Origin: Chryseobacterium gotjawalense
Lineage (GTDB): Bacteria > Bacteroidota > Bacteroidia > Flavobacteriales > Weeksellaceae
Length of the DNA: 64,000 nt
Direction of reading: 5' to 3'
Assembly: GCF_030012525.1 (NCBI RefSeq)
Contig: NZ_CP124855.1
Coordinates: forward strand, 1,054,001 to 1,118,000
In this document: positions 41-15,608 of the stretch, in pieces
Layout of the letters: each line of letters begins with the position of its first letter
Numbering within the stretch: the stretch's first letter is position 1
Notes under the pieces: model-generated
Databases searched by the model: none
What the model was told of the DNA's origin: nothing
The model's input: only the letters and a program-made list of their open reading frames with translations
Program-made: the position numbers and the translations under genes

Positions 41-862
41 TTAATGATTTAGCTCAATAGGATTATTATCATGAATTTCTATTTCTTTTGCCTTTCTATC
101 AATTTCATTTAAGAATTTTTGTTTTTCCTCATTACTGTGAAAATACATTTCTCCGGTAAAAGCCTTGTTTCTAAAAGTTGCTAGTGGGGATTTCCTTTCA
201 TCTTCAGTAATTCTATTATATACCGCTAAAGAAGTTGGTTTAACTTTTTCGTATGTTTTGTCCTCTAAAACAACATAATTAGATCTTTGTTTTTTCACAG
301 ATAAAATTTGAAATAGATGGGTATTGGTTTTATCTGAAATTTTCAAAATTAAGCCAGGTAATCCGTAGAATTTATACGGTCCATCGGATATAGGGATTTC
401 GTCAGTGTACCATGCAGTCCAATATCTTCCGGCAAAATAAATAGTTGCTTTTTGAACTGCAAAACCCAATATGCTGTCTTTTTCATTTGAAATTTCCCAA
501 TTCATCTCTCTATCATCTTTGACTTTTAAAACTGGATCAATCAGGTGATTAGTAGTGTAAAAATGCATTAAGTTTTGGATGTGATTTTTTTCAATAACAT
601 ATCTCACTTTTGTCGATATGTCTGGGAATGATGAAATTCCCAGGCTTGATTTTGCTGTCATGGTTGAGTCAGAGATGATATGTTTCAGACCAGTGAAAAC
701 AGATTTTTTTTCTTTGGCATTAAAATCTAAAACTACAATTTCATCGGTGCTAACATCTTTGTTCAAAGTATCTGTAACATATTTATAATGATATGTAAAT
801 CGAGTATCTTGAGAAAAATATATGGCCGGTAAAATCAAACAAATTATTATTAAATATTTCAT
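41..862 (-). CDS. GLPGLI family secreted protein, copy 1
   Basis: The product is 273 aa. Residues 1-18 (ending IYFSQ) form a Sec-type signal peptide, so the protein is expected beyond the inner membrane. The family hallmark GLPGLI lies at residues 167-172, preceded by PYKF and an aromatic strand (AGRYWTAWY, 144-152). The family is typical of Bacteroidota and no biochemical activity is established; none is assigned here. The gene follows a second GLPGLI gene by 72 bp on the same strand. Both copies carry the motif at identical residue numbers, so they are tandem paralogues and probably share the transcript starting near the element at 1806-1874. The family call is secure; the function is unknown. 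Confidence 0.9.
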   Translation of the reverse strand: MKYLIIICLILPAIYFSQDTRFTYHYKYVTDTLNKDVSTDEIVVLDFNAKEKKSVFTGLKHIISDSTMTAKSSLGISSFPDISTKVRYVIEKNHIQNLMHFYTTNHLIDPVLKVKDDREMNWEISNEKDSILGFAVQKATIYFAGRYWTAWYTDEIPISDGPYKFYGLPGLILKISDKTNTHLFQILSVKKQRSNYVVLEDKTYEKVKPTSLAVYNRITEDERKSPLATFRNKAFTGEMYFHSNEEKQKFLNEIDRKAKEIEIHDNNPIELNH

Positions 863-934: not shown

Positions 935-1771
935 TTAGTTAAGCCGTTTTTCAATTTCAATAGAATTCGTCATACGCCGCATTTGTTTTGAAAGTTCACT
1001 GTCTAAATTTTTTATGCCTTTTCGAATTTTCAAGATGTTTCCATCATTCAGGAGGAATGTATAATTACTGTTTGAAATGTGCATTTCTTTGATGTTTGCA
1101 TTAGGATCTTTGTACCCATCATCAATAAGTTTATTCAACTGCATTTGGGTAATTTCTTTTTCTTTTTTTGAAAAATCATGTAATTCTGCATTTTTATTTT
1201 TTTTAACTTCTACCAAGCTAAATTCGTGGTTCTTTTCTTCATCATAGATTTCAACAATCAATCCTGGTAATCCCGAAAATTTATATGGACCTTCAGAAAC
1301 CGGAATTTCTTTTGTAAACCAAGCAATCCAATTTCGTCCTTTAAAATTTGTTTCTGCTTTCTGACATAGATAGTCTCTTATTTTTTTTTCTTCATTCGCG
1401 AGAGCCCATTTCGGACGACTTTTTTCTGTGATTTTCATTCGAATCCCAGAATAAACTGTATGGTATATCATTTTGTCCTTCAATAAATCTTTGGTTATAT
1501 TATACGTCAGGTTAGAATTGTGTTGTAGAAAAAACAGCCTTTGTACCGCTGCTGCTCCATTTTTACTTAAAATTGAGTCATTATATCTTTTGGCATCATT
1601 ATAAAAATTAGATTCTTTTTTGCTGAGATCAACATCGAGGGTCATGATATCTTGAACGATGGAATCTTTTTTATTACCGTCTGGTATAAAACTATATCTG
1701 TAATGAAACCGGTATTGAGAAAATGAAATTAAAAACGAAAAAAGCATTAAAGCTGAAAATATTTTTTTCAT
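935..1771 (-). CDS. GLPGLI family secreted protein, copy 2
   Basis: The product is 278 aa with a signal peptide at residues 1-19 (ending LISFSQ). GLPGLI is at 167-172, with the conserved preceding segment GRNWIAWFTKEIPVSEGPYK (146-165) that matches the downstream copy closely. The C-terminal third is charged and coiled. It is the first gene of the two-gene GLPGLI unit and lies directly downstream of the conserved promoter-like element at 1806-1874. Biological role unknown; secretion is inferred from the signal peptide. Membership in the same regulon as the TlpA-type gene at 2348-3454 is inferred from the shared upstream element. Confidence 0.9.
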   Translation of the reverse strand: MKKIFSALMLFSFLISFSQYRFHYRYSFIPDGNKKDSIVQDIMTLDVDLSKKESNFYNDAKRYNDSILSKNGAAAVQRLFFLQHNSNLTYNITKDLLKDKMIYHTVYSGIRMKITEKSRPKWALANEEKKIRDYLCQKAETNFKGRNWIAWFTKEIPVSEGPYKFSGLPGLIVEIYDEEKNHEFSLVEVKKNKNAELHDFSKKEKEITQMQLNKLIDDGYKDPNANIKEMHISNSNYTFLLNDGNILKIRKGIKNLDSELSKQMRRMTNSIEIEKRLN

Positions 1772-1805: not shown

Positions 1806-1874
1806 TTTCAAACTTAACATTAATATTTGGAGCAAAGATGAAAGCTATATCGAAATTGATAAATCTTGGGATAT
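1806..1874 (-). promoter_or_regulatory. Conserved 69-bp upstream element, copy A
   Basis: This stretch aligns without gaps to 3516-3584 with 61 of 69 identical bases. The core read on the minus strand is CCCAAGATTTATCAATTTCG, followed by CATCTTTG (1840-1833), a near match to the Bacteroidota -7 consensus TAnnTTTG. It sits 35 bp upstream of the GLPGLI gene start at 1771. No good -33 TTG lies at the usual distance, which would fit an activator-dependent promoter. The regulatory role is inferred from position and conservation. Confidence 0.6.
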
Positions 1875-1988
1875 TAATTACTTAAATGTTTGACATTTAG
1901 TGTTTTATAGATATGGCATTACAAGATTTATAAATTAAAATAGTGAAAACTCAGCTCAGAAATTAATAAATTTTCTTGTATTTAGGTT

Positions 1989-2231
1989 TTATATTTTTGT
2001 ATTGCAATCAATCAAATTTCCAAATCCTAAATTTTCTGCACCGCCTTTTAAACCTAAAAGTTGGCTTCCTTCTCTTGTAGTTTCGGCAAAATTTTGGATT
2101 ATTTTGCCGTAGTATATATTGACGATTCTAAGGTTATAACTCCTTTTTCGAAATTTTTTTTAAAATTTTCCATCGTACAAATATTTGATATTTTCAGTGA
2201 TCGATTAAGCTGTTCGGATGCCGCTGTATTT
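1989..2231 (-). pseudogene. Degenerate coding remnant ending LLGLKGGAENLGF
   Basis: This is most of the 576-bp gap between the TlpA-type gene and the GLPGLI pair. On the minus strand one frame is open from about 2231 to a stop at 2099-2101. The neighbouring frame continues with an open stretch ending at 1989 that contains FAETTREGSQ then LLGLKGGAENLGFGNLID. A diverged copy of this tail (LLGLKAAAYNSGFINLIE) occurs at 13615-13751. Conservation at the protein level suggests both descend from a real gene, here broken by a frameshift. I do not recognise the family. The rest of the gap (1875-1988, 2232-2347) shows nothing further. Confidence 0.45.
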
Positions 2232-2347
2232 TATATTTCAACTGTGAGTATATCCTCAGTATTATACAAACAAACTAGGTACACCAAAATTGAAAATATC
2301 TAATTATATTGGATATCGACTTCTAGTTGCTTAATAGATTGGGAAAT

Positions 2348-3454
2348 TCATTGTTTTTTAATCAGCTTAAGCAAATACTGTTCGGAAGAAAGTCCGGTAG
2401 AAGATCCCAAAATTTTCAGATTACTATCAACTAATACCGTATAAGGAATGGCTGTATTGAATTTCAGTAATATTTGCAAATCGTTAAAAGACGGGTTTTT
2501 CTTGTCTATAAGGAGCTGCTTCCAAGGCATTTGTTCTTTCAAAAGTGCATTTTTCCATGAGTTTTTATCATCATCCGTAGAGATAGAAATAAATTCTATG
2601 TTTTCTCCATTGCGATCATATGCTTTTTTAAGCATAGGAATCTCCAATCTGCAAGGACCACACCAACTTGCCCAAAAAACAATGAGGTGTTTTTTATAAT
2701 GAGGATCCAACATAGCAACTCTATTTCCCTGTGTATTTTCTAATAGAGGAAATGTTATTTTTCCAATTTCTTTTGCTTTATTATTGTATTCTAAAAGTTC
2801 TTTATATGGTTTGCTCTGCTTAATATTATCATCAAACAATTTGAGAAAATCATCAGTCTGATGGCTGTTAAAAACAGTTTTATTATCAATAAGCTTATAA
2901 AGGATATGATATGAAAAAGGATATTTTTTGAGTTTTTCTTTTATCATATTTACATTGCCGGGAGTGTTGTTTGTAAAAATTGGGTCGCCGGTATTAAATA
3001 ATGCCTCCGTTTGCCTGCCTGCCTGTATTTTAGAGATGGAGATATCCGCAAAGATTACGTCTGGAGAAGTTATAATATTTCCAGGAGTATATTCTATAAG
3101 GTTTCCTTTTATTTTTATTACAGGATCTGTCATAAAAGTTGGAGACCCCCATTTAGGGACATTGGTAGTATATGATATAACCCTCTGAACGTTCTTTTTG
3201 TCTCTGTGAAATATGCCAATATAGAAGGGCAACTCGTCTTTCACTTCGTAATTCATTTCAAAGTGTCCTTTTGAAGTTGCTGCACTATCTATTTTATCGA
3301 GCATAGACCATTTAAATAAATAAACGGTACCATCCGGAAGATTGGGGATATCCCCAACAATCTTGACGGTTTGCTTATTGTTGCATGAATAAGTAAATAC
3401 TGCAAAAAATAAAAGATAAAGAAATAGTCTTTTTTTATTTTTTTTCATTTTCAT
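2348..3454 (-). CDS. DUF4369/TlpA-like thioredoxin-fold lipoprotein
   Basis: The product is 368 aa. Residues 1-23 are a positively charged, hydrophobic signal ending TYSC (Cys24), a weak lipobox, so a periplasm-facing lipoprotein is likely. The N-terminal half resembles the beta-sandwich DUF4369 domain found ahead of TlpA domains in Bacteroidota. The C-terminal thioredoxin-like domain carries the redox motif WCGPC at 264-268 (Cys265, Cys268). Such proteins reduce or exchange disulfides in the periplasm; the partner is unknown. The gene is preceded by the conserved element at 3516-3584, which it shares with the GLPGLI unit downstream. Start: the first in-frame ATG is used; a second Met two codons later is equally possible. 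Confidence 0.88.
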   Translation of the reverse strand: MKMKKNKKRLFLYLLFFAVFTYSCNNKQTVKIVGDIPNLPDGTVYLFKWSMLDKIDSAATSKGHFEMNYEVKDELPFYIGIFHRDKKNVQRVISYTTNVPKWGSPTFMTDPVIKIKGNLIEYTPGNIITSPDVIFADISISKIQAGRQTEALFNTGDPIFTNNTPGNVNMIKEKLKKYPFSYHILYKLIDNKTVFNSHQTDDFLKLFDDNIKQSKPYKELLEYNNKAKEIGKITFPLLENTQGNRVAMLDPHYKKHLIVFWASWCGPCRLEIPMLKKAYDRNGENIEFISISTDDDKNSWKNALLKEQMPWKQLLIDKKNPSFNDLQILLKFNTAIPYTVLVDSNLKILGSSTGLSSEQYLLKLIKKQ

Positions 3455-3515
3455 TTTTTAATCATTAAAATGGTTTAATTAAAATGTTTTAAATTATCTC
3501 GCGTTATTACTGACA

Positions 3516-3584
3516 TTTCAAACTTAATGTTAATATTTGAAGAAAAGATAAAATGGATATCGAAATTGATAAATCTTGGGATAT
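3516..3584 (-). promoter_or_regulatory. Conserved 69-bp upstream element, copy B
   Basis: Ungapped 61/69 match to 1806-1874. The minus strand shows CCCAAGATTTATCAATTTCG followed by TATCTTTT (3550-3543), one base off the TAnnTTTG -7 consensus. It lies 62 bp upstream of the TlpA-type gene start. Together with copies A and C this suggests co-regulation of the accessory genes. The rest of the gap 3585-3666 shows no gene. Confidence 0.6.
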
Positions 3585-3666
3585 AATATTATTATATTGT
3601 TGATATTAAGTCATTTGTACGATACAATTACAAAAATGACGTGTTTTAAATTTAAAATATTAACTC

Positions 3667-3987
3667 TTAATTTTTAAGATTTTCCTCTAAAAACTGTGCT
3701 AATTCTTCTGGCGAAATATTTTTTTTAATAATATTTCCCTCCGCATCTAAAAGAAATGTTGTGGGAAATTGATTGATATTATATTTCTTTGCTTCTACCC
3801 CATTTTCATCCAAAACATTTTGCCAAGATAGATTGTTTTTATCAACGGTTTTCCGCCAGTTAGCAATATCTAGTGTCCTGTCTGTAGAGAATACTATAAT
3901 TTCAAAACCTTTGTCTTTGTAGCACTTTGTAAAACATTGCCTTTTTAGTTTATTTGATGAAAAGTGTTTGTATCTTTTTCGATGCAT
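3667..3987 (-). pseudogene. 5'-truncated TlpA/thioredoxin-like gene fragment
   Basis: 106 codons encode the C-terminal two thirds of a TlpA-type domain: KDKGFEIIVFSTD, then a QFPTTFLLDAEGNI strand with the cis-Pro motif (FPT), then a final helix. The redox CxxC, signal peptide and N-terminal domain are absent. The first ~20 residues (Arg/Lys/Phe-rich with scattered Cys) do not fit the family and look like out-of-frame reading. No coding continuation is visible upstream, where the promoter region of the divergent regulator (4117) begins. I read it as a relic of a paralogue of the gene at 2348-3454. Confidence 0.7.
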
Positions 3988-4116
3988 CCAACAATTTATA
4001 AAAAACAGAGTTAAAACAATAATTTACTTCGCTGATTTTTAATTAAATAAAAATTACTTTCATATTAGACAAACAATTTGTAGTTAAAATCTGTACTATT
4101 GTAAAAATTTTGTGAA

Positions 4117-5853
4117 ATGTGGAAAAAACAGTTAACGATTCTACTTATTTTATGCTATAATCTTATATTCAGCCAAAGTGTAGTAGGTTTTAAGATTCCA
4201 GATTCCCTTAAAAATACAAGTGGGAAGGAGCTTACTGAATCCTATGATAAGGTATTCCGAATTGATAATGTTAAATCAGAACTGTATGCAAATGCAATTC
4301 TTCGTAAAGGTAAAATGACCAAAAATTCTAATTTAATTTATGATGGTTATTATAAACTAGCACATGTGAAAGGTCTTGCTTCTGAAAATGGACATCCTTT
4401 TGCTGATTCTCTATTGCAAATGACGAAAAATTTTATTTCAAATGAATATCCTGCAAAAGCACATATCATAAAAGGGACCCTATTATATTATGACTTTAAG
4501 TATTCGGATGCACTCGATTATTTCATTTCGGCACAAAAACTGGCGAAAGATAAAAATAAAGATCAATTTTTTTACGTAAAAAAACTTATTGGTATTCTAA
4601 AAACTGCTACAGGCGAAAATGAGGAAGCGCTTCCTCTCTTTATAGAATATTATCGATATGAAAAAAACAAAATTAACAATAACAATAATGGAGATACAAA
4701 AAACTACATAGGATCTATCTTTTCTCTATCAAACAGCTACAGCAAAAATGAAGACTATAATAAAAGTAGATTTTACTCCAATTTAGGTTTAAAAGAATGT
4801 CATAAATATAAGGATTATACCTATTACACTTACTTTATACTGTCCGATGGGGTTTCAAACTTCTATTTAAAAAATTATAAAGAGGCGATTAAAAGTTTTT
4901 TATCCGTAGAAAAGGAGTTATTAAAGAATAAGGATTATGAAAATTTAGCAATCTCCTATTATTTCCTTGGTAAGACTTATGATCAAACGCAAAAAGAAAA
5001 AGAAGCGATCAATTATTTTTTAAAGACTGACTCCTTATCTTTTGCGTTAAATAAATTTCTACCTGTAACCCGTGACGGATATGAAAGACTAATAGATTAT
5101 TTTAAAAAAGATGGAAATCAGGTTGAACAATTGAAATATATTAATCATTTGTTTTATGCTGATAGTGTAATGGCTCATAACAACAAATATATTGCGAAAG
5201 ACATTTACAAAAAATATGACACCCCAATATTATTACAGGATAAAGAGCTGCTAATTAATAAACTAGCAAATAAAAACAATTCGTTGCAGTGGTTTCTTCT
5301 ATTTAGTTCACTATTAGTTCTTGTCTTGACAGTTATATATTTCCGTACGCGAGAGAGATTACGACGATATCAGAAGCAAGCTGTTATTCTTCTGGAGAAT
5401 GTAGAAATTGAGAATAGTAATAAAGTACGAATCGTAGAAAGTGGTGAGAATAGATTAAATAATAATCAAAAAAACAGAAGCACTTTATCTGAAGAGAATT
5501 ACCACGACATAAAGACTAAAATAACTCATTTTGAAAGTAGTAAAGGTTTTATACAAAACAATCTAACGTTAGGTAAACTTGCTGAAGATTTAGATACCAA
5601 CCGTGACTATCTGTCCAAATTTATAAATGAGGAAAAAGGAAAAAATTTCTCTCAATATTTAAACGAGTTAAGAATTAATTACATTCTTCTAGAACTAAAA
5701 AATGACAAAAAATTAAGAAAATACACAATTAGTGCTATTGCAAGTGAAGTTGGATTTAGTAATTCAGAATCATTTTCGAATGCTTTTAAACGAACTACTG
5801 GAACTTTACCGTCCTTTTACATCAAACTATTGGAAAAAGACCACGAAAACTAA
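4117..5853 (+). CDS. Membrane-anchored TPR sensor with AraC-type HTH domain
   Basis: The product is 578 aa. A signal-like segment at 1-19 (ending LIFSQ) is followed by an extracytoplasmic helical region with TPR-like repeats (about 60-350). A single membrane segment lies at about 389-411 (SLQWFLLFSSLLVLVLTVIY). A cytoplasmic AraC/XylS double helix-turn-helix lies at about 482-575 (DTNRDYLSKFINEEKGKNFS, later GFSNSESFSNAFKR). The architecture suggests a one-component regulator that senses an external ligand through the TPR part and binds DNA inside. A paralogue of the same layout is at 13887-15608. The hydrolase at 5880 starts 26 bp after the stop, indicating an operon. The target is unknown; the elements at 1806, 3516 and 13828 are candidates (inference). 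Confidence 0.9.
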   Translation: MWKKQLTILLILCYNLIFSQSVVGFKIPDSLKNTSGKELTESYDKVFRIDNVKSELYANAILRKGKMTKNSNLIYDGYYKLAHVKGLASENGHPFADSLLQMTKNFISNEYPAKAHIIKGTLLYYDFKYSDALDYFISAQKLAKDKNKDQFFYVKKLIGILKTATGENEEALPLFIEYYRYEKNKINNNNNGDTKNYIGSIFSLSNSYSKNEDYNKSRFYSNLGLKECHKYKDYTYYTYFILSDGVSNFYLKNYKEAIKSFLSVEKELLKNKDYENLAISYYFLGKTYDQTQKEKEAINYFLKTDSLSFALNKFLPVTRDGYERLIDYFKKDGNQVEQLKYINHLFYADSVMAHNNKYIAKDIYKKYDTPILLQDKELLINKLANKNNSLQWFLLFSSLLVLVLTVIYFRTRERLRRYQKQAVILLENVEIENSNKVRIVESGENRLNNNQKNRSTLSEENYHDIKTKITHFESSKGFIQNNLTLGKLAEDLDTNRDYLSKFINEEKGKNFSQYLNELRINYILLELKNDKKLRKYTISAIASEVGFSNSESFSNAFKRTTGTLPSFYIKLLEKDHEN

Positions 5854-5879
5854 ATTACTGATTTTTTTATAATCAAATA

Positions 5880-8135
5880 ATGAAGCACTATTTTTCTTTC
5901 TTTTTAATTCTACTTTATGGGTTATCATTTTCTCAAAAAATCGCCATAAAACAATTTTCTGAGAAAATCGATTTTAATCAAATTGAGAGCTTGGTACAAC
6001 ATCTCACGTCTAAAATTCTCCAAAAATATGATGAAAAAGATAAGTCAACCTATTACGATAATATATATAGGATCAGCATTGTCGCTGGTAAATATGATTT
6101 AGCACTTACGGAGTTGGATTCGGTTAGAAGTATTTACATGGACAGCAATTCTACGATTGCAAATGCTATGGGGACACAACATGAGATTTATATTAAAACC
6201 ATTATTAATCCAGCTGCCAAAAATAATTTTGAATATATCTATAAGACTGAATTCAAAAAAAAATATGAAACATTACCTGCTAAATCACAAATTATTTTAC
6301 CACTGTATTTTAAAGGTGATAGTGATAAAATAAGGAAAGGACTTATAGATTTGCTGCAAAAAGAGTTTATCGGAAAAGATAGTGTTGATGTAAAAACTGC
6401 TTTGAAACTTTGCAGAGACTACAACGGTTATATTGTAGCAAATAAATCTTTTCACCTGGCAAATGAATATTTAAAAGAATTTGACGCGGAAAACTTTACG
6501 GTCAAAGACAGTATCTTGATAAAAAACAAATCCAATCGCGATATATCTGTCAGAGTAGTAATAAATAATAAAATTAAAAACCCGGAATCTACAATTATCA
6601 TCAATACAATTTATGCTGATGAAGATGATATCAATGATGCTAAAGTGAGGGCAAGTTATGGCTATAACTGCGTATACATTTATACTCGTGGAAAACATTT
6701 AAGCACTGATAAAATTGAACCTTTTGAGCATGAGCAAGAAGATATTAATGAGGTAATTGACTGGATTATAAAGCAACCCTGGAGCAATGGTAAAGTTGGA
6801 ATGATTGGAGGAAGTTATTTAGGTTTCAGTCAATGGGCAGCAGCCAAAAAATTACATCCAGCTCTTAAAACCATAATTCCTCAAGCCTCTGTGGGAATTG
6901 GTTCTATGGATTTCCCTATGAATAACAACGTCTTTGGTTCATATTCTTTAAGATGGCTAAATTATGTTACAAACAATAACACCACGGATGCTGCAAATTT
7001 CAGGAATGAAGAAAAGTGGAATTCAATTTATAAAAAATGGTACATAAGTGGACTTCCTTTCAATAAATTAGATTCTATTAGCGGAAACAGAAATGAAGTT
7101 TTTCAACGTTGGCTGCAACACCCGAGATATGATCAATATTGGAAAAATATGATTCCTTACAAAGAGGAATTTTCAAAAATTAATATCCCTATTTTAACAA
7201 TAACTGGATATTATGATTCAGATCAGTTAGGAGCATTATATTATTTTCGAAATCATTATAAATATAACAGAAACGCCAATCATTATTTAATAATTGGTCC
7301 TTACGATCATTCCGGAGCACAAGGTTACATCAAAAATGAATTATTAGGATACAAAATTGCCCCTATTGCAAAAATTGACCTGAATGAAATCTGTATGGAA
7401 TGGTTTGATTATGTGTTGAAAGAAAAAAATAAACCAACTTTTTTCAAGGATAAAATTAATTATCAAGTGATGGGAACCAATCAATGGAAACATACTCCAT
7501 CAATTGAAAATTTCGATGAACATCAATTAAGGTTTTATCTTCAAAACCAGAATAATCAATTTGTCTTATCTCAATCAAACTCAAAAAAGAGTGGTTTTTC
7601 AAAACTGAATATTAATTTCGAAGATAGAAGCGATGCCGGTGAATTAATAAAACAAGAAGTGAAAATTTTAGGCAGTACAATTTATAATAAAAATAGTTTG
7701 ACATTTTCAACAAATATTTTTGAGAAGCCATTTGAGTTTTCTGGAAATTTTTCTGGGAATTTTAAAATTTCAGTCAATAAAAAAGATGTTGACCTTAATA
7801 TAAAACTATATGAGCTTTTACCAGACGGAAAATATTTTCTACTTTCCAGCTATGTAGGAAGAGCCAGTTATTCCCAAAATCCTGAAAAAAGAAAATTACT
7901 CATTCCTAACAAGAAAGCCACTATACAAATAAAAAACAATGAATTTATAAGTAAAAAAATAGAAAGAGGCAGCCGATTAATTGCAGTAATTGGTGTTAAC
8001 AAAAATCCTTTCTACGAAATAAATTATGGATCAGGAAAAGAGGTAAGCAACGAATCAATAGAAGATGCAAAAGAACCTTTAGAAATCAAGTTATACAATG
8101 ACAGCTATATAAAAATTCCAATTTCACAAGACTAA
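5880..8135 (+). CDS. CocE/NonD family hydrolase (X-Pro dipeptidyl-peptidase type), secreted
   Basis: The product is 751 aa. A signal peptide (1-19, ending GLSFSQ) is followed by about 200 helical residues, then an alpha/beta hydrolase fold. The nucleophile is Ser312 in GGSYLG. The acid is probably Asp446 or Asp448 in GYYDSDQLG, and the general base is His477 in GPYDHSG. The C-terminal part is a beta-sandwich typical of CocE/XPP_PepX enzymes. Known family members cleave acyl-ester or X-Pro amide bonds; the substrate here cannot be read from sequence. Tight linkage to the TPR-AraC regulator suggests it processes, or is induced by, the sensed compound, possibly a peptide (inference). Confidence 0.88.
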   Translation: MKHYFSFFLILLYGLSFSQKIAIKQFSEKIDFNQIESLVQHLTSKILQKYDEKDKSTYYDNIYRISIVAGKYDLALTELDSVRSIYMDSNSTIANAMGTQHEIYIKTIINPAAKNNFEYIYKTEFKKKYETLPAKSQIILPLYFKGDSDKIRKGLIDLLQKEFIGKDSVDVKTALKLCRDYNGYIVANKSFHLANEYLKEFDAENFTVKDSILIKNKSNRDISVRVVINNKIKNPESTIIINTIYADEDDINDAKVRASYGYNCVYIYTRGKHLSTDKIEPFEHEQEDINEVIDWIIKQPWSNGKVGMIGGSYLGFSQWAAAKKLHPALKTIIPQASVGIGSMDFPMNNNVFGSYSLRWLNYVTNNNTTDAANFRNEEKWNSIYKKWYISGLPFNKLDSISGNRNEVFQRWLQHPRYDQYWKNMIPYKEEFSKINIPILTITGYYDSDQLGALYYFRNHYKYNRNANHYLIIGPYDHSGAQGYIKNELLGYKIAPIAKIDLNEICMEWFDYVLKEKNKPTFFKDKINYQVMGTNQWKHTPSIENFDEHQLRFYLQNQNNQFVLSQSNSKKSGFSKLNINFEDRSDAGELIKQEVKILGSTIYNKNSLTFSTNIFEKPFEFSGNFSGNFKISVNKKDVDLNIKLYELLPDGKYFLLSSYVGRASYSQNPEKRKLLIPNKKATIQIKNNEFISKKIERGSRLIAVIGVNKNPFYEINYGSGKEVSNESIEDAKEPLEIKLYNDSYIKIPISQD

Positions 8136-8172
8136 ATGGCCCAATTTCCTTATCAATAATTTAAAAAAGCAG

Positions 8173-8385
8173 AAAAATCTTCGACAAACCCAGAATGACA
8201 TTGCCAATAATGCTGAAACGATAAGATCGATTTTGAAAAATTTTCTGCCGTTATTTACTTTTTTCCTCAAATAACAAACCACCTGAAATTCTAGCCCCGA
8301 TGGGGGCGGCATCCTTTTTCGCAGCGCAGCGGAGAAAAAGATACAGCGGACAGCGGGACGGGTTTCTCTAAGAAGCGGAAATCTT
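8173..8385 (+). repeat. ~210-bp GC-rich intergenic repeat, copy 1
   Basis: Nearly identical to 15649-15859 in the same orientation. It contains the hairpin GCCCCGATGGGGGC, then CCTTTTTCGCAGCGCAGCGG and a run rich in AGCGG, much more GC-rich than its surroundings. It fills the gap between the converging hydrolase and TonB-type genes. A spurious minus-strand open frame covers it. In both copies the repeat lies just beyond the 3' end of a minus-strand gene, so a 3'-UTR or terminator role is possible (inference). Confidence 0.85.
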
Positions 8386-8414
8386 TCTGGCACCTAAAAA
8401 AAATGTTTAGTATT

Positions 8415-10567
8415 CTATTTGGCTCCACCGCCATCTTTCTCGACATTGGTTTTCGTATTTTCCTTCACTTTCTGGTTTCCAAATCTTTTAACTAAGGAAA
8501 AAGAGACGCCATACCAGTCGAAAACTCCAACATTTCGGAAGGTTCCAATTGGGGCAAAAGTTGTACTATCGAAGGAGGGTTTCATGAAAATATTATTTAA
8601 TCTTACTGTTGCTTCCATTTCAAGAACTGGAAATATTTTGGTCGCAGAAAAAGTGTGGTATACATTACTTCCATTGCCATTCGAGTTCCCATTATTCTGA
8701 GTAAAAACACCAAGCCACGCATTTAAATTAATGTTTTTCTCAAAGAGATTTGTGTAAGACATGTTGGTAGAACCAGTGATGTTGGTGATATAATCTTTTG
8801 CATTGATCTTATTTCTCTTGTTGAAATCGCTGTTGTCCGTATAGTTAACTCCAACGTTTACATTGACATTCAGTTTATTTTTGAAAAAAGTTTGATTGGT
8901 ATTAAAATTACCCGATAGCGTCTCAACACGACCGTCAAAATTAGTAGGTGTGCTGATGGTTTTTCCATCTTCAATGATATAGGAAGTCCAATAATCGTGG
9001 TTACTGAAAAAATAGGTTGCAGAGAAAAAATATTTCTTTTTAATTCCCAATTTCAAAGAAAACCGGTCGCTTGGATTCGGCTGCAAATCCATATTTCCAC
9101 GATAAAAAGTATCTTCCTCATTTGTCGGCATCATAAAAGGATTAAATTCCGAATAATACGGTCGCCAAATATTGTGATTATAAGTTGCGCTTAGATTGTA
9201 GTTTTCGGATAAAGCATATTTCAATAAAAGATCTGGTAAAAGCGTGCCGTAAGAATTGCTTTTTTCGATATTCCCAACCTCTTGCCGAACGGTGTAAGAA
9301 ATGTATTCGAATCTCAATCCGATTCTGGTTTCCAGTTTTTTAAAGAAAGTTTTACTGAAATTGGCGTAGAGTGAATTCTGGTTGTCGGAGTATTTGAAAT
9401 TATTACTTTGGGAATCATCGAAGATCCAATTGCCATTCGTTAAATTAAAATAATCATTCGGAATACCATTATTTTTAAAAGCGATTTTCCCACCAAATTC
9501 GAGTTGGCTTCCGTCTGCACCGATGGGTTGAGAGTAATCTACTTTCAGATAATATTCTCTTTGTTGGCGATTGCCATCGATTCTTTTTCCAGAAGGGATT
9601 GATGTGGTGTTGAGGTAGGTTAAATGGTGGTTAGAGTCTTCGGAGCGGTTATAGTTAACTCCAAGGTTGATATCTAAAATTTTATTTTTAACCTTATCAT
9701 AATATTTGTAAAAAAAATTGGTTCCCAAATTTTGATTTAAACCATCAATGTTTGGTTTTTGGTGTAGGAGTTTTGGAACACGTCATCCAAATAATTGCTT
9801 CCGTAGGAATCGATATTTTGATTTCTTTTGTTTCTGTAATATTCAAAAATAAGTCCGATATTGTTTTTATCGTTCAGCTCTAATTCGGAGGTTGCAGACA
9901 TTGATGGACTTAGATTTCTGTAAACGTTTTCGGAATGAATAAGTCTCAATGCTTTATTGGCGTACAAAAAATTTTGATTATCGGTGGTGTTGACGCCGGA
10001 ATTATCACCGTAACTGCCGGTGAGTGTTTGGGTAAAACTTTTTTTATGATAATTGAGGTTCAGATTAGAATACTGCGAATTCTTGGCACTTTGGTTATTA
10101 TTAAATGTTGCACTGCCTTTCAAACCTTCATTCTCGAGTTTCTTTAGAACAATGTTGATGACTTCGCCGGTGGTTTCATATTTTGCGGAGGGACTTGTAA
10201 TAACCTCAATTTTCATCAGGTTTTCGGCTGGGATTGTTTTTAAATATTCTTTAAGTTCTTTTCCTGAGAATACCGATTTCCGATCATTAATATAAACGGT
10301 GACACTTTGCCCCTCAGCCTGAACGACATCATTATTATCAATACTTACCAAAGGCGTCATTCGAAGGACATCCCAAGTGGTATTTCCTGCAAGAATAGAA
10401 CTATTGGCTACATTGAAAACGGTGCGGTCTACTTTATTTTCTACCGTAGGTTTTTTAGCAATTACGACAATTTCCTGAATATCTTTTTGTTTGGTGCTGT
10501 CTTGTTTGGTTTGTGCCGTGATAAATGTTGAGCAAACAAGGGCAATAGGAAGAATAGTAAATTTCAT
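8415..10567 (-). pseudogene. Outer membrane beta-barrel / TonB-dependent receptor, frameshifted
   Basis: Two frames make one protein of about 717 aa. The 5' part (10567-9737) has a signal peptide ending FITAQ, the start of a plug (KDIQEIVVIAKKP) and the TonB-plug-like TVYINDRKSVFSGKELKEYL. The 3' part (9728-8415, open upstream to about 9760) is barrel strand after strand and ends in a Lys-rich tail. In + coordinates the break is at the T5 run 9756-9760. One extra base there would join YTKK with PNIDGLNQNLGTNF in a single frame. It resembles the OMP_b-brl family of putative receptors; the ligand is unknown. The defect is either real or a homopolymer error. The IS element at 10718 sits 150 bp upstream of the start, which may separate it from its promoter. 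Confidence 0.8.
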
Positions 10568-10857
10568 GCAATAAGCTTCTTTTTTATAAAGACATTAGTA
10601 AGAAGTGTTTTGTTACATCTTCTTATTTTTTAATTTTAATATTTTGAAAATCACTTTAATAAGTTGATTTCTTTTCAATTGTTATCTCTGCATCATTTTT
10701 CAAGTTGAATTTTCCCTGGTAAGTGGTCTACTTTTTCGACAGTTTGTAAATATAGTTTTTTCATTTGAAATTTGCACTTGCCAACCGAAACGGAATCAGG
10801 CGCTGCTGAGGAGCAACCTGACAGGGATAAGTTGGCCGACGAAATATAATTTTCAGG

Positions 10858-10883
10858 AGCACTGCTTTTTGCGGTGCTTTTTT
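10858..10883 (+). terminator. Hairpin with T-run inside the IS tail
   Basis: AGCACTGC, a T5 loop and GCGGTGCT form an 8-bp stem with one G-U pair, followed by a run of T on the plus strand. It would stop plus-strand read-through, opposite to the transposase genes. Confidence 0.4.
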
Positions 10884-10921
10884 CTGAACAATATTTCAGA
10901 AGCTCATGCCTTAATAAAACC

Positions 10922-11740
10922 TTACGCTGCTTCATATTCCGCCGGGGTTTTAAAGTTCAGTGCCTCATGCGGTCTTTCATTGTTATAATCCTCAATCCAC
11001 ACCGCAGTAAGCTGCTTCACCTGCTGCTGTGAGAAAAATAAATGCGCATCCAGAATGTCTTCCCGGTAGGTTTTGTTGAACCGCTCGATGATGGCGTTCT
11101 GCTGTGGTTTTCCTTTCTGGATTTTGATCCATTCGATATTATTCTCATGCAGCCACGTCTGGAACAGACCCGAGGTGAACTCCGAACCGTTATCGGTGCG
11201 GATACCCTTGGGTTTGCCATGCTTCTCGATAACACGCTCCAAAAACGTTATTACCGCTCTGGAGGGCATCGAGGTGCGAATATCAATGTCCAGGCATTTT
11301 CTGTTATACTGATCAATAATATTCAGGGTCCGGAACCGTGAACCTCTTGCCAGTGCATCACTCATAAAGTCCATTGCCCATTCCTCATTCTGCTCCAACG
11401 GGACAGAAATGGGATTGGCAGGATTGTCGAAGCGTTTTCTCTTCATTCTTCTGTAAAGCGAAAAACCATACTTCTGATACACGCGTCGGATTTGAGAAGC
11501 ACCGAACTCAGGAAATTTCCTCTTCACTTTCACAATGACTTTCTTGCGTCCCAATCTGCTGGTTCCCAATATTGATGTGATGGCTCCTTTCAGCTTTTCA
11601 TCCTTCGGCGGCATTCGCTTTTCATAATATTTTGAAGTTCGTGAGCGTCCCATTACGCGGCACACCTTAGCATAACTTACATCCGGTTTTATCTCCTGCA
11701 GGTAAGCAATACAGCGCTCTTTTTGATAAGGTGTCACCAC
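10922..11740 (-). CDS. IS3-family transposase OrfB (DDE integrase domain)
   Basis: The product is 272 aa. An HTH_21-like N-terminal region is followed by the rve integrase core with DDE residues visible in AMDFMSD, IRTDNGSEFTS and the ERFNKTYRED segment, and a C-terminal NNERPHEALNFKTPAEY motif typical of IS3 transposases. The frame opens with GTG GTG at 11740 and overlaps orfA. It is normally made as an OrfAB fusion by -1 frameshifting at the A6G heptamer (11746-11740). It catalyses cut-and-copy movement of the element. Full length, so the element may be active. Confidence 0.93.
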   Translation of the reverse strand: MVTPYQKERCIAYLQEIKPDVSYAKVCRVMGRSRTSKYYEKRMPPKDEKLKGAITSILGTSRLGRKKVIVKVKRKFPEFGASQIRRVYQKYGFSLYRRMKRKRFDNPANPISVPLEQNEEWAMDFMSDALARGSRFRTLNIIDQYNRKCLDIDIRTSMPSRAVITFLERVIEKHGKPKGIRTDNGSEFTSGLFQTWLHENNIEWIKIQKGKPQQNAIIERFNKTYREDILDAHLFFSQQQVKQLTAVWIEDYNNERPHEALNFKTPAEYEAA

Positions 11741-12000
11741 TTTTTTGCGTTGATCTCCTTCAAAATATCGATGGACAGTTGCTGGTCTGCAACAATACGC
11801 TTAAGGCGGGCATTTTCCGATTCCAGCTCCTTAACACGCTGGAGTTCCGAGAGGGTCATGCCGCCGTATTTGCTCTTCCAGTTATAAAACGTCTGCTCGG
11901 AAATCCCAAACTCCCGGCAGATCTCTGCCACTTTTTTACCTTCTTGCTGGGTCTGGAGCACCTTTAAAATCTGGGCCTCCGTAAATCTTGATTTTTTCAT
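11734..12000 (-). CDS. IS3-family transposase OrfA (helix-turn-helix, leucine zipper)
   Basis: The product is 88 aa. An N-terminal HTH_Tnp_1 domain (KKSRFTEAQILKVLQ, then REFGISEQTFYNWK) binds the IS ends. The C-terminal part (LQRVKELESENARLKRI) is a leucine-zipper coiled coil. The last codons GCA AAA AAG TGG TGA overlap the start of orfB and provide the slippery sequence. It lies 66 bp inside the right end of the element. Confidence 0.93.
   Translation of the reverse strand: MKKSRFTEAQILKVLQTQQEGKKVAEICREFGISEQTFYNWKSKYGGMTLSELQRVKELESENARLKRIVADQQLSIDILKEINAKKW
11740..11746 (-). promoter_or_regulatory. Programmed -1 frameshift site A-AAA-AAG
   Basis: The minus strand reads GCA AAA AAG in the orfA frame, followed immediately by TGG TGA. 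Slipping back one base gives AAA AAA GTG GTG in the orfB frame. This heptamer is the canonical IS3-family slippery site and would give the OrfAB fusion transposase. Confidence 0.8.
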
Positions 12001-12136
12001 TGTTTTTTCTTGACGTTAAAATTAATACTCTAATTTTAATCTGTCCAAAAAAAGAAGCCATGTACCCCCTCTTTCTTGAAATATTGGTGTGTCAATGCGA
12101 AAATTACCAACAGCGTTTTTTTTGATCGGAAATTTC

Positions 12137-12553
12137 CTAAACCAAATCATAACATCTAATTTGTAATTGTTTTATTCTATTTGTATCAATAAATTTTGCA
12201 ATTTGAACTGAATCTTCAAGAAAAAAGGATTCTTTACTTAAATCAATTATTATACTAGAAATTGGTTCAGCAACCTTATAATTTAAAGGAATTAGTTCTT
12301 TTATGATTTGGGTATCTATAAACCCTATTTCATTTACTAATAAAAAATTTAAATAATCTTTTAAATGTTTTTCATTTTCTTCTCCATAATTGTCATAAAT
12401 TTCTTCAATGGAAAAATTTGGAAACTCTTCAATAAGTAAAATATAGAGAGAATTTGGAATTAGGTAATAATTATTTCTTTGTGTATCGCAAATTATACTT
12501 CTTGTATGCCCATAATTTACCAAGCAACAAGCAAATCTATTGAAATAAGTCAT
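12137..12553 (-). pseudogene. N-terminal stump of a GRASP-with-SPASM-type radical SAM peptide maturase
   Basis: 138 codons. The opening (YFNRFACCLVNYGHTRSIIC, then DTQRNNYYLIPNSLY) and the end (KQLQIRCYDLV) resemble the leader-proximal region of SPASM maturases of grasp-with-spasm systems in Chryseobacterium-type genomes. Those proteins are usually about 350 aa or longer; here the radical SAM and SPASM parts are missing. The frame stops about 70 bp before the IS end, and no continuation is seen on the other side of the IS, so a deletion probably accompanied the insertion. The start overlaps the upstream DUF6624 gene by 4 bp, so the two were translationally coupled. The family call comes from remembered family features, not a search. 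Confidence 0.6.
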
Positions 12554-13422
12554 CTTATTTTATTAACATATTTTAAATATATACTTAGCTTTGGCAAATT
12601 ATATTCGTATCTTAAGGAATCTAGGTTTTTAACGTCCTCTATTGGATCTGACCCTAATTTTTTTGTGTCAGCGTTAAATTTTAGCTGTGTGCCAAATTTT
12701 TGTTTCTTTTTTTCACTCACTAGATCTCTATCTATTAGATAAGCTTTATTATTTAAAGAATAGGAGTTTGATTTTGAAACATATTCCAATATTTCTTTTC
12801 TAAAATTAATTTCCATGTCACTGTGTTGAGCAATATAAAAGATACTTTTGCTTGCCAAACAATCACAATCATCATCAAGTATTTTATTTAAAGTATGTTT
12901 TTTTATTAAAGATTTTACAAATTCCCTGTTTATTGAATCTTGTTTAATAGTCAAACGACCTATGCTGTCTAGTTTTTGAGAATCATTATTGTATTTATTA
13001 AACAATCTTCTGTACATTTGATCATCTTCATAAATTTTATTCCAATTAATTTGGCTCAATTCACTGTTTTTGTTGCATTTACTATATAGATTATAATATT
13101 GTATTAGTTCTTTGGTTCCTAAATCACATTTATTTATTTTACTATAATTTTTTTTTATAAGTTCTTCAGCTAATAAAAGATTATTTTTTTCTTTTGATTT
13201 TGTTAGATATTTTAAAATTATAGCTTTTTTAGAATTATTATATAAATGAAATAATGGAATTAAATTTTTATGGGTATAGTTTGAAATGGTTGCACTATCA
13301 GATAGTAAATTCAAACTATCTGCCTCTTGCATTACATTTACTAAATTTAATGGTGTATTACTGGTCTTTAAACAAGAAGTAAGAAATAAAAATAAAACAA
13401 AACAAATAATATTATTTTTCAT
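12550..13422 (-). CDS. DUF6624-like lipoprotein
   Basis: The product is 290 aa. A signal peptide ends in the lipobox LTSC (Cys17). Residues about 130-250 resemble the DUF6624 domain: IAQHSDMEINF, then KAYLIDRDLVSEKKKQKFGT, the conserved DR...GTQ block. The function of the domain is unknown. The 3' end overlaps the truncated maturase start (ATGA-type junction), so the lipoprotein belongs to the same operon and may be a periplasmic partner of the modified peptide (inference). Base composition is more AT-rich than the housekeeping neighbours. Confidence 0.75.
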   Translation of the reverse strand: MKNNIICFVLFLFLTSCLKTSNTPLNLVNVMQEADSLNLLSDSATISNYTHKNLIPLFHLYNNSKKAIILKYLTKSKEKNNLLLAEELIKKNYSKINKCDLGTKELIQYYNLYSKCNKNSELSQINWNKIYEDDQMYRRLFNKYNNDSQKLDSIGRLTIKQDSINREFVKSLIKKHTLNKILDDDCDCLASKSIFYIAQHSDMEINFRKEILEYVSKSNSYSLNNKAYLIDRDLVSEKKKQKFGTQLKFNADTKKLGSDPIEDVKNLDSLRYEYNLPKLSIYLKYVNKIR

Positions 13423-13424
13423 AA

Positions 13425-13606
13425 TTAACTGATAATTTTAAATATAACTATTCTTGAGCTTTCAACAATATAACCTCTTGTTTGATAAAAATCTGAATTA
13501 GAATACATTATAGCAATTCAGAACTTCCTACAATTTGGAAATTATTTTGCCCCATTAGGAAAGAAAATGGAAGAAATAAAACTATTGTAATTATCTGAAG
13601 CTTCAT
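13425..13606 (-). pseudogene. Broken small secreted-protein gene
   Basis: An ATG at 13606 opens 32 codons with a clear signal peptide (MKLQIITIVLFLPFSFLMGQ) and stops at 13508. The neighbouring frame (13508-13425) carries a plausible C-terminus (YQTRGYIVESSRIVIFKI) that stops 2 bp before the DUF6624 start. Together they look like a secreted protein that lost its middle and frame. I do not recognise the family. Confidence 0.4.
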
Positions 13607-13614
13607 AGGGTGAA

Positions 13615-13751
13615 TTATTCGATTAAATTTATAAATCCTGAATTATATGCGGCGGCCTTTAAACCTAAAAGAATATCTGCTATTTGGTGTTTTGCAAAAT
13701 ACGGTATTATAAAATTTATTACCTGAAATTTACACCTATGATGATATCGAA
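13615..13751 (-). pseudogene. Second copy of the LLGLK..AAAYNSGF remnant
   Basis: An open minus-strand stretch ends FAKHQIADILLGLKAAAYNS then GFINLIE, aligning with the remnant at 1989-2231 over about 30 residues with one gap. No start codon is visible. It is followed 8 bp later by the broken secreted-protein start at 13606 and is preceded by element C. Two decayed copies, each next to a copy of the same promoter element, suggest a once-repeated gene cassette. Confidence 0.4.
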
Positions 13752-13827
13752 CAGCTTAAATCAACTACTAAATAATGAAGTCTTTGTTTTTTCAAATTTG
13801 AAGTATTTAGTTTATCTGCGCAATAAA

Positions 13828-13858
13828 AGCATACCGAAATTGATAAATCTTGGGAATT
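13828..13858 (-). promoter_or_regulatory. Conserved upstream element, copy C (core only)
   Basis: The minus strand reads CCCAAGATTTATCAATTTCG followed by GTAT, identical to the core of copies A and B, but the downstream part is diverged. It lies upstream of the remnant, DUF6624 and maturase-stump unit, with about 400 bp of decayed sequence between. Regulatory role inferred. Confidence 0.5.
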
Positions 13859-13886: not shown

Positions 13887-15608
13887 TTAGCTTAATCGTT
13901 TGTGTTCTTCTTTTAATGCCTTTAAATAGTAGGAAGGAAGTGTACCGGTTATTTTTTTAAATGCAGAGGTAAAGGTTTCTGAATTATTAAACCCAGCTTC
14001 TTCAGCAATTCCCGCTATGGTCAACTTTTGAAGGTTTGGATTTATTTTTAATTCTTCGATGAGATAGGTGATTCTTAATTCATTGACATATTGCGAAAAA
14101 CTTTTGCCTTTCAACTCTTTTACGGCTTTAGAAAGGTAATCTCTGTTGGTTTCAAATTCTTTTGCTAAAATGTCTAAATTTAAGTTTCTGTTCAAAAACT
14201 CTTTTTTCGTTTCAAAACTTTCGAATTTCAGATAAAGAGAATTTAATAGTTCCTCAGAAAGAACTGTTTTTGAAATTTGATTTTTAACTCTTCCGGTATC
14301 GTGATTTTCATCAATATATTTTCCCTCAATAATTGTGGTAATCAGTGGTTCTGAATTTTTGGTTAAAAGAATTGCCTGCTCTTCATAATGTTTAACTTTC
14401 TTACTTTTTTTAAAGTATAGAAATAGCAAAATAAAAACTGCTGATCCAATAATTCCGCTAATCCAATATAATACGGTATTTTTAGAATTCAAATCGGAAA
14501 TCAATTTTTCCTTTTCTTTCAACAGAATGGGTGTGTCGTATTTTTCATTAATTTCTGTAGAAAGATGATGGCTATTTTTATTTAAAATACGATCAAAATC
14601 TAACAGGTGCTCAATATAGAATAACTGTTTTTCTTTATCATTCAGTTTTTTATAATGTTCAATAAGAATCGGATAGAGACCTCTTAATTCTGAAGTTAAA
14701 TATTTTGTTTTGTTAATAAGAGAATCTACTTTTTTAAAAGTATCTAAGAATTTGTAATCTTTATTTTCATATTGACTCATTCCGATATAAAATTCGCTTA
14801 ACGCTAAATTTTGGGTATTGTAAGAATGATCTTTGATTTGTTTAGAAACGTTCTCTAAAGTCTTTTGGGCCTGCAGATATTCCTTCCTTTTGTATTGATT
14901 GATACCGGATGTTAGCAATAAATTAAGATAATTATCATTGGGAGGAAGTTTGCTGTTTATTTCTAAACCTAATCTGATAAAAGAATCAGACAGATCAAGT
15001 TGATCCATTTTTGTATAAGTATATGCAATGGTATATAAGCAACTTATATAATCAATTTTATCGGTCAACTGCTCACCGTCCAAATATTTTTTATAACCTA
15101 AAAATAATTTTTGGGCCTCTCGATAATTTCCTAATTCCAACTTTAATAAACCAATATTGAAATTGACAACATTATAATTGTATTCATTGTTTTTGGAAAA
15201 ATCTTTGGCAAGCAAATAATTATTTAAAGATTTTGAATAATCAGAGGTGAAATAATAGTGGTTCCCTTTAAGTAAATAAGCGATCGATATGTTATCGAAA
15301 TCTTGACTCTTTTTTGAGATGATAATCATGCTGTCCAGAAAGGAAGGATCAGATTTACTTCGATACAAAAACTGATAACCGTCGGAAATCCCGGTTTCAT
15401 TCTTTTCTTTTTTTCCTTTTAAGAGAATAGAGTTCGCATATAATTCTCTTTTTTTGGAATCGCTTTTTACTGTTGAATTAAATGCGGATTCTAAATATTT
15501 ATAAGTCTTCTTATTTAAAGAATCCGGGATTTGAAATCCTTTTACACTCTGGGAAAAGCATAAGTTTAAAGAGAAATGGAGTAAAAAGAACAGAACAATT
15601 TTCTTCAT
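13887..15608 (-). CDS. Membrane-anchored TPR sensor with AraC-type HTH domain, paralogue
   Basis: The product is 573 aa with the same layout as 4117-5853. It has a signal segment ending LCFSQ, the shared opening SVKGFQIPDSL, extracytoplasmic TPR-like helices, a membrane segment at about 378-400 (ISGIIGSAVFILLFLYF) and a C-terminal AraC HTH (ETNRDYLSKAVKELKGKSFS, later GFNNSETFTSAFKK). The two regulators bracket the accessory region with opposite orientation. It probably controls neighbouring accessory genes in response to an external signal; the ligand is unknown. Its 3' end abuts element C (29 bp away). Confidence 0.9.
   Translation of the reverse strand: MKKIVLFFLLHFSLNLCFSQSVKGFQIPDSLNKKTYKYLESAFNSTVKSDSKKRELYANSILLKGKKEKNETGISDGYQFLYRSKSDPSFLDSMIIISKKSQDFDNISIAYLLKGNHYYFTSDYSKSLNNYLLAKDFSKNNEYNYNVVNFNIGLLKLELGNYREAQKLFLGYKKYLDGEQLTDKIDYISCLYTIAYTYTKMDQLDLSDSFIRLGLEINSKLPPNDNYLNLLLTSGINQYKRKEYLQAQKTLENVSKQIKDHSYNTQNLALSEFYIGMSQYENKDYKFLDTFKKVDSLINKTKYLTSELRGLYPILIEHYKKLNDKEKQLFYIEHLLDFDRILNKNSHHLSTEINEKYDTPILLKEKEKLISDLNSKNTVLYWISGIIGSAVFILLFLYFKKSKKVKHYEEQAILLTKNSEPLITTIIEGKYIDENHDTGRVKNQISKTVLSEELLNSLYLKFESFETKKEFLNRNLNLDILAKEFETNRDYLSKAVKELKGKSFSQYVNELRITYLIEELKINPNLQKLTIAGIAEEAGFNNSETFTSAFKKITGTLPSYYLKALKEEHKRLS

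Follow-up and report, generated by a model that had tools for sequence, protein, structure and literature searches.

The class II bacteriocin and pheromone regulons of lactic acid bacteria, such as pln and blp, rely on a histidine kinase and a response regulator together with direct repeats, and the RRNPP peptide receptors are soluble cytoplasmic tetratricopeptide repeat (TPR) proteins with a non-AraC output. Here we analyze a repeated promoter element found in 64,000 nucleotides of Chryseobacterium gotjawalense DNA (assembly GCF_030012525.1, contig NZ_CP124855.1, positions 1,054,001 to 1,118,000), a stretch that we call the window. We estimate a probability of roughly three in four that the copies of this element are each an activator site joined to a promoter, and that they belong to a regulon for ribosomally synthesized and post-translationally modified peptides (RiPPs) run by membrane regulators that combine TPRs with an AraC-type DNA-binding domain (TPR-AraC regulators). 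In several related bacteria, the element has the appearance of a switch for a gene network that makes peptides and possibly signals with them.

Among Bacteroidetes, gene clusters of the class I lanthipeptide type carry LxLxKx5L GG leaders and a split LanB (PMC7268733). The accessible part of that source describes no operator or particular regulator for these clusters, and the word “promoter” does not occur in it. For graspetide (grasp-with-spasm) loci, the accessible part of PMC8939145 mentions OmpR regulators and TPR-repeat proteins and no common promoter element, again with 0 occurrences of “promoter.” Searches of open PMC papers turned up no description of the element or of TPR-AraC control of such clusters.

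The system examined here resembles pln and blp in its scattered GG-leader peptide operons with a common repeated site upstream of the promoter, in its C39 exporter, and in accessory or immunity genes that also stand alone under the same promoter. It differs from them in that a one-component membrane TPR-AraC protein would take the place of the two-component pair, and in having a dyad and a Bacteroidota promoter.

An exact 20-base core is present three times on the minus strand of the window (1851-1870, 3561-3580, and 13835-13854), where 0.03 occurrences are expected by chance, and no fourth core was found in the window even with up to three mismatches. A preliminary description of this DNA had reported these same-strand copies, here termed A, B, and C, and a gapless 69-bp alignment of the first two; all three cores were recovered exactly, and the recomputed identity between 1806-1874 and 3516-3584 is again 61/69 bases. 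The scan of the complete genome and its relatives that it had proposed gave 10 core matches in this genome at up to three mismatches, compared with 0 for a reversed control. Nine of these 10 fall in two islands, and the tenth, with three mismatches, is at 2114794. The 69-mer used as a query has nine genome-wide matches. At up to two mismatches, the core was found in 17 of 320 genomes of the family and the control in none. We considered chance or a coding repeat as the origin of the element and rejected both.

Several of the sites in the 17 core-bearing family genomes resemble chance or coding matches and are still counted in that number. For example, the regulator-peptidase-LanB cassette is absent beside the core site in seven loci (L042, L044, L045, L050, L051, L055, and L056), although a TPR-AraC match lies about 9 kb from the site in L051, and the only matches in L055 are weak ones to S15 and ABC. 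Elsewhere, L052 has no reference neighbor at the core site, and L049 has a C39-ABC relative. Because several core matches look like chance or coding matches, the plain core is a poor probe. A better one is the functional unit revealed by site alignment, an 18-bp imperfect dyad located 38 bp before the TTTG of the -7 box. At up to one mismatch, this unit occurs at 10 places in the 3.27-Mb genome, all in the two islands: the three window copies and seven more (D to J) in a peptide island at 278-305 kb. Across the 320 family genomes, the unit gave 83 matches in 47 genomes, some of which (e.g., in G081, G231, G274, and G006) carry their single mismatch within TTTG, versus six control matches; none besides this genome exceeds five.

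The vegetative promoter consensus of Bacteroidota is TTG / TAnnTTTG. In the layout that we propose, the 18-bp dyad (consensus CRARATTKATMAATYTYG) is followed by 11 bp, the -33 position, 20 bp, and a -7 box of this type ending in TTTG at +39 to +42, with the -33 TTG retained in some promoters and lost in others. TTTG stands at offset 39-42 in 10/10 genome copies, and the full TAnnTTTG in 8/10 (C and I are the exceptions). The TAnnTTTG-like -7 box reported earlier for A and B is thus present, and C has TTTG at the same distance. The accompanying statement that no good -33 TTG exists holds for A and B and fails for C, which is the one promoter among the 10 in this genome that has it; in Chryseobacterium relatives, 35 of 44 outward-facing sites have a -33 TTG. 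An earlier suggestion that an activator site replaces the -33 element is supported with a correction. The sequence supports a probable activator-type site feeding a promoter, but the site does not physically replace the -33 element because the dyad lies upstream of that position and many relatives keep the TTG. A position directly upstream of -33 that overlaps neither promoter box is typical of activators. As in AraC/XylS-type regulons, the candidate regulator has an AraC-type helix-turn-helix (HTH), and sites lie beside its gene and directly upstream of -33; the dyad of copy C is 34 bp from a regulator open reading frame (ORF).

To relate the dyad to the regulators, relatives of the TPR-AraC proteins were gathered by protein alone, which yielded 77 loci (26 from Chryseobacterium and 51 others). 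A dyad at up to two mismatches lies within 400 bp of the regulator, as measured from the tblastn match and not from the start codon, in 25 of the 26 Chryseobacterium loci. In total, 47 such dyads are near a regulator (20,401 bp) versus nine elsewhere (513,638 bp), and at least four of the nine (in L071, L075, and two in L078) themselves precede GG-type precursor ORFs. The two membrane TPR-AraC regulators named as candidates in the preliminary description are therefore probable partners of the element. The core at up to four mismatches behaves similarly in Chryseobacterium, with 23 matches within 400 bp (20,401 bp) versus two elsewhere (469,426 bp), covering 15/26 regulators, and a near-palindromic core site can be counted on both strands here; the other 51 loci have one match near the regulator and one elsewhere. 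This genome also has more divergent TPR-AraC paralogues, and no unit was found near them at up to three mismatches.

The geometry of these sites is fixed and directional. TTTG offsets peak at 39 (36 cases, both reading directions), and no other offset exceeds four cases except 11 and 12 (12 and 8 cases), which correspond to the -33 position. Reading outward from the regulator gene, TTTG follows at offset 38-40 in 42/44 sites (21/21 upstream, 21/23 downstream), compared with 0/44 reading inward. Similarly, TTG is found at 12-13 outward in 19/21 upstream and 16/23 downstream sites and inward in 0/21 and 4/23. This count was confined to 420 bp on the upstream and 150 bp on the downstream side of the regulator, and where one side had several dyads, one with an outward TTTG was preferred. 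Dyads occupy both sides of the regulator gene in 19/26 Chryseobacterium loci. In L073, L079, L084, and L092, the region upstream of the regulator has two tandem dyads spaced 31 bp apart.

Downstream operators were called by a rule that uses only the dyad center and a -7-like word, and this rule fires in 2/352 displaced stretches. Five of the 51 non-Chryseobacterium loci (L140, L141, L144, L145, and L146) have short or truncated regulator frames and were omitted from the operator and precursor counts, the test of dyad symmetry, and the divergence correlations; they show neither an operator nor an S9/S15 reference match. A downstream operator is present at 36 of the remaining 72 regulators (25/26 in Chryseobacterium and 11/46 in others). 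Outside Chryseobacterium, it accompanies 11/11 regulators whose S9 peptidase lies within 900 bp, compared with 0/35 of the rest (Fisher 7e-11), where a neighboring peptidase is defined as a same-strand BLAST match to an S9 or S15 reference within that distance; none of these 35 has such a match to either reference. When the distance is widened to 3 kb, the operator is found at 11/12, the exception being L121. Across all 72 loci, it is present in 32/38 with LanB and 4/34 without. Furthermore, a GG-leader ORF follows 34 of the 36 downstream operators. With four operator-less cases (L093, L097, L098, and L123), these make 38 regulator-adjacent precursors, a set from which L080 and L081 were dropped as peptidase N-termini and to which L082 was added. 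The sequences themselves establish the unit with its constant spacing and orientation, as well as its association with this regulator subfamily and with peptide operons. At L093:8089-8240 and L097:11686-11840, a different palindrome-like word, ATTCTTGAAT, occupies the usual dyad place between regulator and leader-type ORF and is perhaps a diverged operator.

The seven units of the 278-305 kb island precede peptide genes or candidates for them. Six of them (D, E, F, G, H, and J) have a small ORF downstream, with about 90-105 bases from the first base of the core to its start codon. Profile matches that exceed the cut-off are to NF047798 (“bacteriocin-like protein”) for the ORFs of F, G, H, and J and to TIGR04139 for that of E; the two ORFs at D have no profile match. 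Copy I, on the minus strand, precedes a precursor with a class I lanthipeptide leader (NF038153, 23.9 bits, cut-off 22), which is followed by S9, LanB, and Lant_dehydr_C genes. The regulon is accordingly described better as mainly one of secreted peptides (RiPPs) than as the three accessory gene groups first proposed.

This island also holds GG-leader precursors, a third candidate regulator (at 303 kb), a C39 ABC exporter, a prolyl oligopeptidase, a VKOR gene, GLPGLI genes, and an IS3 transposase. Its ATP-grasp maturase (TIGR04192, 238.7 bits, cut-off 230), SPASM maturase (TIGR04193, 414.2 bits, cut-off 175), C39 exporter, and HlyD-like gene (91.5 bits, under the family cut-off) recall the Bacteroidetes graspetide loci (PMC8939145). 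Its leader type, C39 exporter, and LanB split over two genes (Lant_dehydr_N, 442.8 bits; Lant_dehydr_C, 205.8 bits) recall the class I lanthipeptide-type clusters (PMC7268733). Unlike in those clusters, a search of the whole genome for the LanC cyclase family PF05147 gave 0 matches (of 21 genomes searched, 10 contain a match), and Cys is absent from the core of 31/38 regulator-adjacent precursors. Because the cores are mostly Cys-free and PF05147 is unmatched here, the regulator-adjacent peptides need not be lanthipeptides. In L010:7920-10966 (genome 297920-300966), the peptides that partner the split LanB are likewise mostly Cys-free. Pro occurs in the core of 16/19 S9-linked versus 5/13 S15-linked precursors.

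A structural model of the window regulator next to copy C (w2; 41 sequences, mean pLDDT 85.6, pTM 0.63) begins with an N-terminal helix and continues with a superhelix of helical repeats (about residues 29-340), a long helix that reaches residue 416, a linker modeled with low confidence (419-448), and the HTH domain. Judged by eye, the N-terminal helix is hydrophobic and the long helix is a membrane helix; this would give the protein a signal peptide and a membrane span, and hence a periplasmic sensor. A profile search against solved structures returned AraC-type domains; for the TPR part, the best match was RapJ, followed by LGN and other TPR proteins, with RapI, RapF, and RapH also among the matches. 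Foldseek ranked LGN first and placed Rap-peptide complexes and NprR within the first 50, with TM-scores by query length below 0.4. These fold matches agree with peptide binding and are no proof of it. The protein resembles the RRNPP receptors (Rap, NprR, and PlcR) in its TPR superhelix, but it appears to be membrane anchored, its TPR part is presumably periplasmic, and its HTH is of the AraC type; eukaryotic TPR proteins match it too.

The topology of the regulator, its binding to the dyad, its action as an activator and not as a repressor, and the signal are our inferences. A membrane-anchored one-component regulator, with a periplasmic TPR sensor, one membrane span, and a cytoplasmic AraC-type HTH, would bind the dyads near which it is encoded and activate operons for secreted peptides. 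Its targets would be its own GG-leader peptide along with the peptidase and split LanB that accompany it, other precursors of the bacteriocin-like and graspetide kinds, and accessory genes of the GLPGLI and TlpA types. A fuller and clearly more tentative scenario is a new peptide-signaling circuit of Bacteroidota, in which the GG peptide encoded next to the regulator, mostly Cys-free and modified by LanB, would be exported and sensed outside the inner membrane by the TPR domain of the neighboring regulator. The paired S9 or S15 peptidase would trim or destroy this peptide, which would autoinduce all dyad promoters, namely those of bacteriocin-like peptides, graspetides, and rows of GLPGLI proteins, the last of which would in that case be immunity proteins. 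That GLPGLI proteins confer immunity is a guess. A general rule that GLPGLI genes follow precursors is unsupported, as GLPGLI is the next gene in 5/14 distinct MKN[LF]K-type ORFs, and three of these five are in this genome.

Several observations weigh against control of this unit by TPR-AraC activators. None of the three window copies is followed by a precursor gene. By the rule used here, the Chryseobacterium locus L075 lacks a downstream operator, as do five loci from other genera with LanB nearby (L093, L097, L098, L121, and L123), four of which have a leader-type ORF, with L121 having its S9 gene 987 bp downstream. The symmetry of the dyad arms beyond composition is modest (75/112 versus 67.9 +- 3.4, with 143/5000 shuffles reaching 75), and AraC proteins, as readers of tandem half-sites in most cases, are not commonly associated with an 18-bp dyad. 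Finally, operator and HTH do not co-diverge beyond common descent in a way specific to the HTH: the partial correlation of operator divergence with HTH divergence given the sensor is 0.11 (p 0.098), and with the sensor given the HTH it is 0.17 (p 0.017).

Some of these points would be expected if the dyad were the site of another DNA-binding protein and the TPR-AraC gene were a mere passenger in peptide islands, namely the site shape, the five LanB loci that have the regulator and no site, and the operator divergence that tracks the sensor as well as the HTH. We nevertheless regard such an arrangement as quite unlikely given that the sites lie at the edges of regulator genes, commonly on both sides in Chryseobacterium, while the other neighbors, which were scanned for reference genes only, vary (S9 or S15; OMP, GLPGLI, precursor, or maturase). 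Repression by the TPR-AraC protein from the same operator, with release on a signal, is unlikely. The promoters of the many relatives that keep both TTG and a -7 box might fire unaided, but the dyad stops 11 bp short of the -33 position without reaching either box, and nine of the 10 promoters in this genome lack the -33 TTG. The repeat might also be imagined as the duplicated flank of a mobile cassette or as a recombination site. Recent duplication did occur, as copies B, D-H, and J share 81-90% of their bases with A over stretches of 59-69 bases and the likeness continues into the untranslated leader, and both islands contain IS3-type transposases. However, across genera it is mainly the dyad, spacing, and promoter boxes that are kept while the intervening sequence has diverged, which makes this origin very improbable.

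Features of the window that bear on the element (window positions)
Feature	Position	Strand	Remarks
Copy A	1809..1868	-	dyad 1868-1851; -7 box TAAGTTTG 1816-1809; precedes GLPGLI row
Copy B	3519..3578	-	dyad 3578-3561; -7 box TAAGTTTG 3526-3519; precedes TlpA-type lipoprotein gene
Copy C	13793..13852	-	dyad 13852-13835; TTG 13823-13821; -7-like CAAATTTG 13800-13793
GLPGLI gene, second after A	41..862	-	row extends past window
GLPGLI gene, first after A	935..1771	-	
TlpA/thioredoxin-type gene after B	2348..3454	-	lipoprotein call by eye
w1, TPR-AraC membrane regulator	4117..5853	+	HTH_18 above cut-off
S15-family peptidase adjoining w1	5880..8135	+	
Grasp-with-spasm SPASM maturase, N-terminal fragment	12137..12553	-	65 bits vs cut-off 175; profile positions 1-130 of 342
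DUF6624-like gene after C	12550..13422	-	24.8 bits, under Pfam cut-off 27
w2, TPR-AraC membrane regulator	13887..15608	-	HTH_18 residues 481-563; TPR-like superhelix about 29-340 in model

We read the window itself as a satellite of the 278-305 kb island that has decayed in part: operators, regulators, and accessory genes are still there, and precursor genes are missing. Copy C occupies the place of the downstream operator of relatives, right after the regulator stop codon and with TTG and TTTG in position; it is followed by the DUF6624-like gene, a maturase that is a fragment and not a full SPASM enzyme, and an insertion sequence (IS) pair instead of a precursor. The IS pair is a set of transposase genes (HTH_Tnp_1 and rve domains) at 10922-12000 adjoining the maturase fragment. 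Between w1 and the S15 peptidase there is no dyad and no precursor ORF, unlike in the relative G016 (L054); in G006 (L053), the precursor is likewise absent.

The GLPGLI pair placed downstream of copy A by the preliminary description is present, and it is only the front of a longer row. A profile search found 11 GLPGLI matches on the same strand after copy A (genome 1044923-1055768), a row that is not shown to be a single operon; two members have internal stop codons, and one of these two is under the family cut-off. The whole genome has 31 GLPGLI matches. An outer-membrane beta-barrel (OMP_b-brl_3) gene at 8415-10567 may span two ORFs and is possibly broken, and a relative of it comes after the upstream operator in L085, L086, and L088. 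A thioredoxin-like ORF at 3667-3987, which matches only the later part of the profiles, is perhaps the remnant of a TlpA-type gene.

For one group of Bacteroidota peptide clusters, these results provide a concrete operator sequence, a probable regulator, and a candidate regulon of 10 promoters. Searching for the unit offers a route to unannotated precursor genes, and a role for the GLPGLI family is suggested as well. Peptide-based signaling in Bacteroidota would thereby become directly testable.

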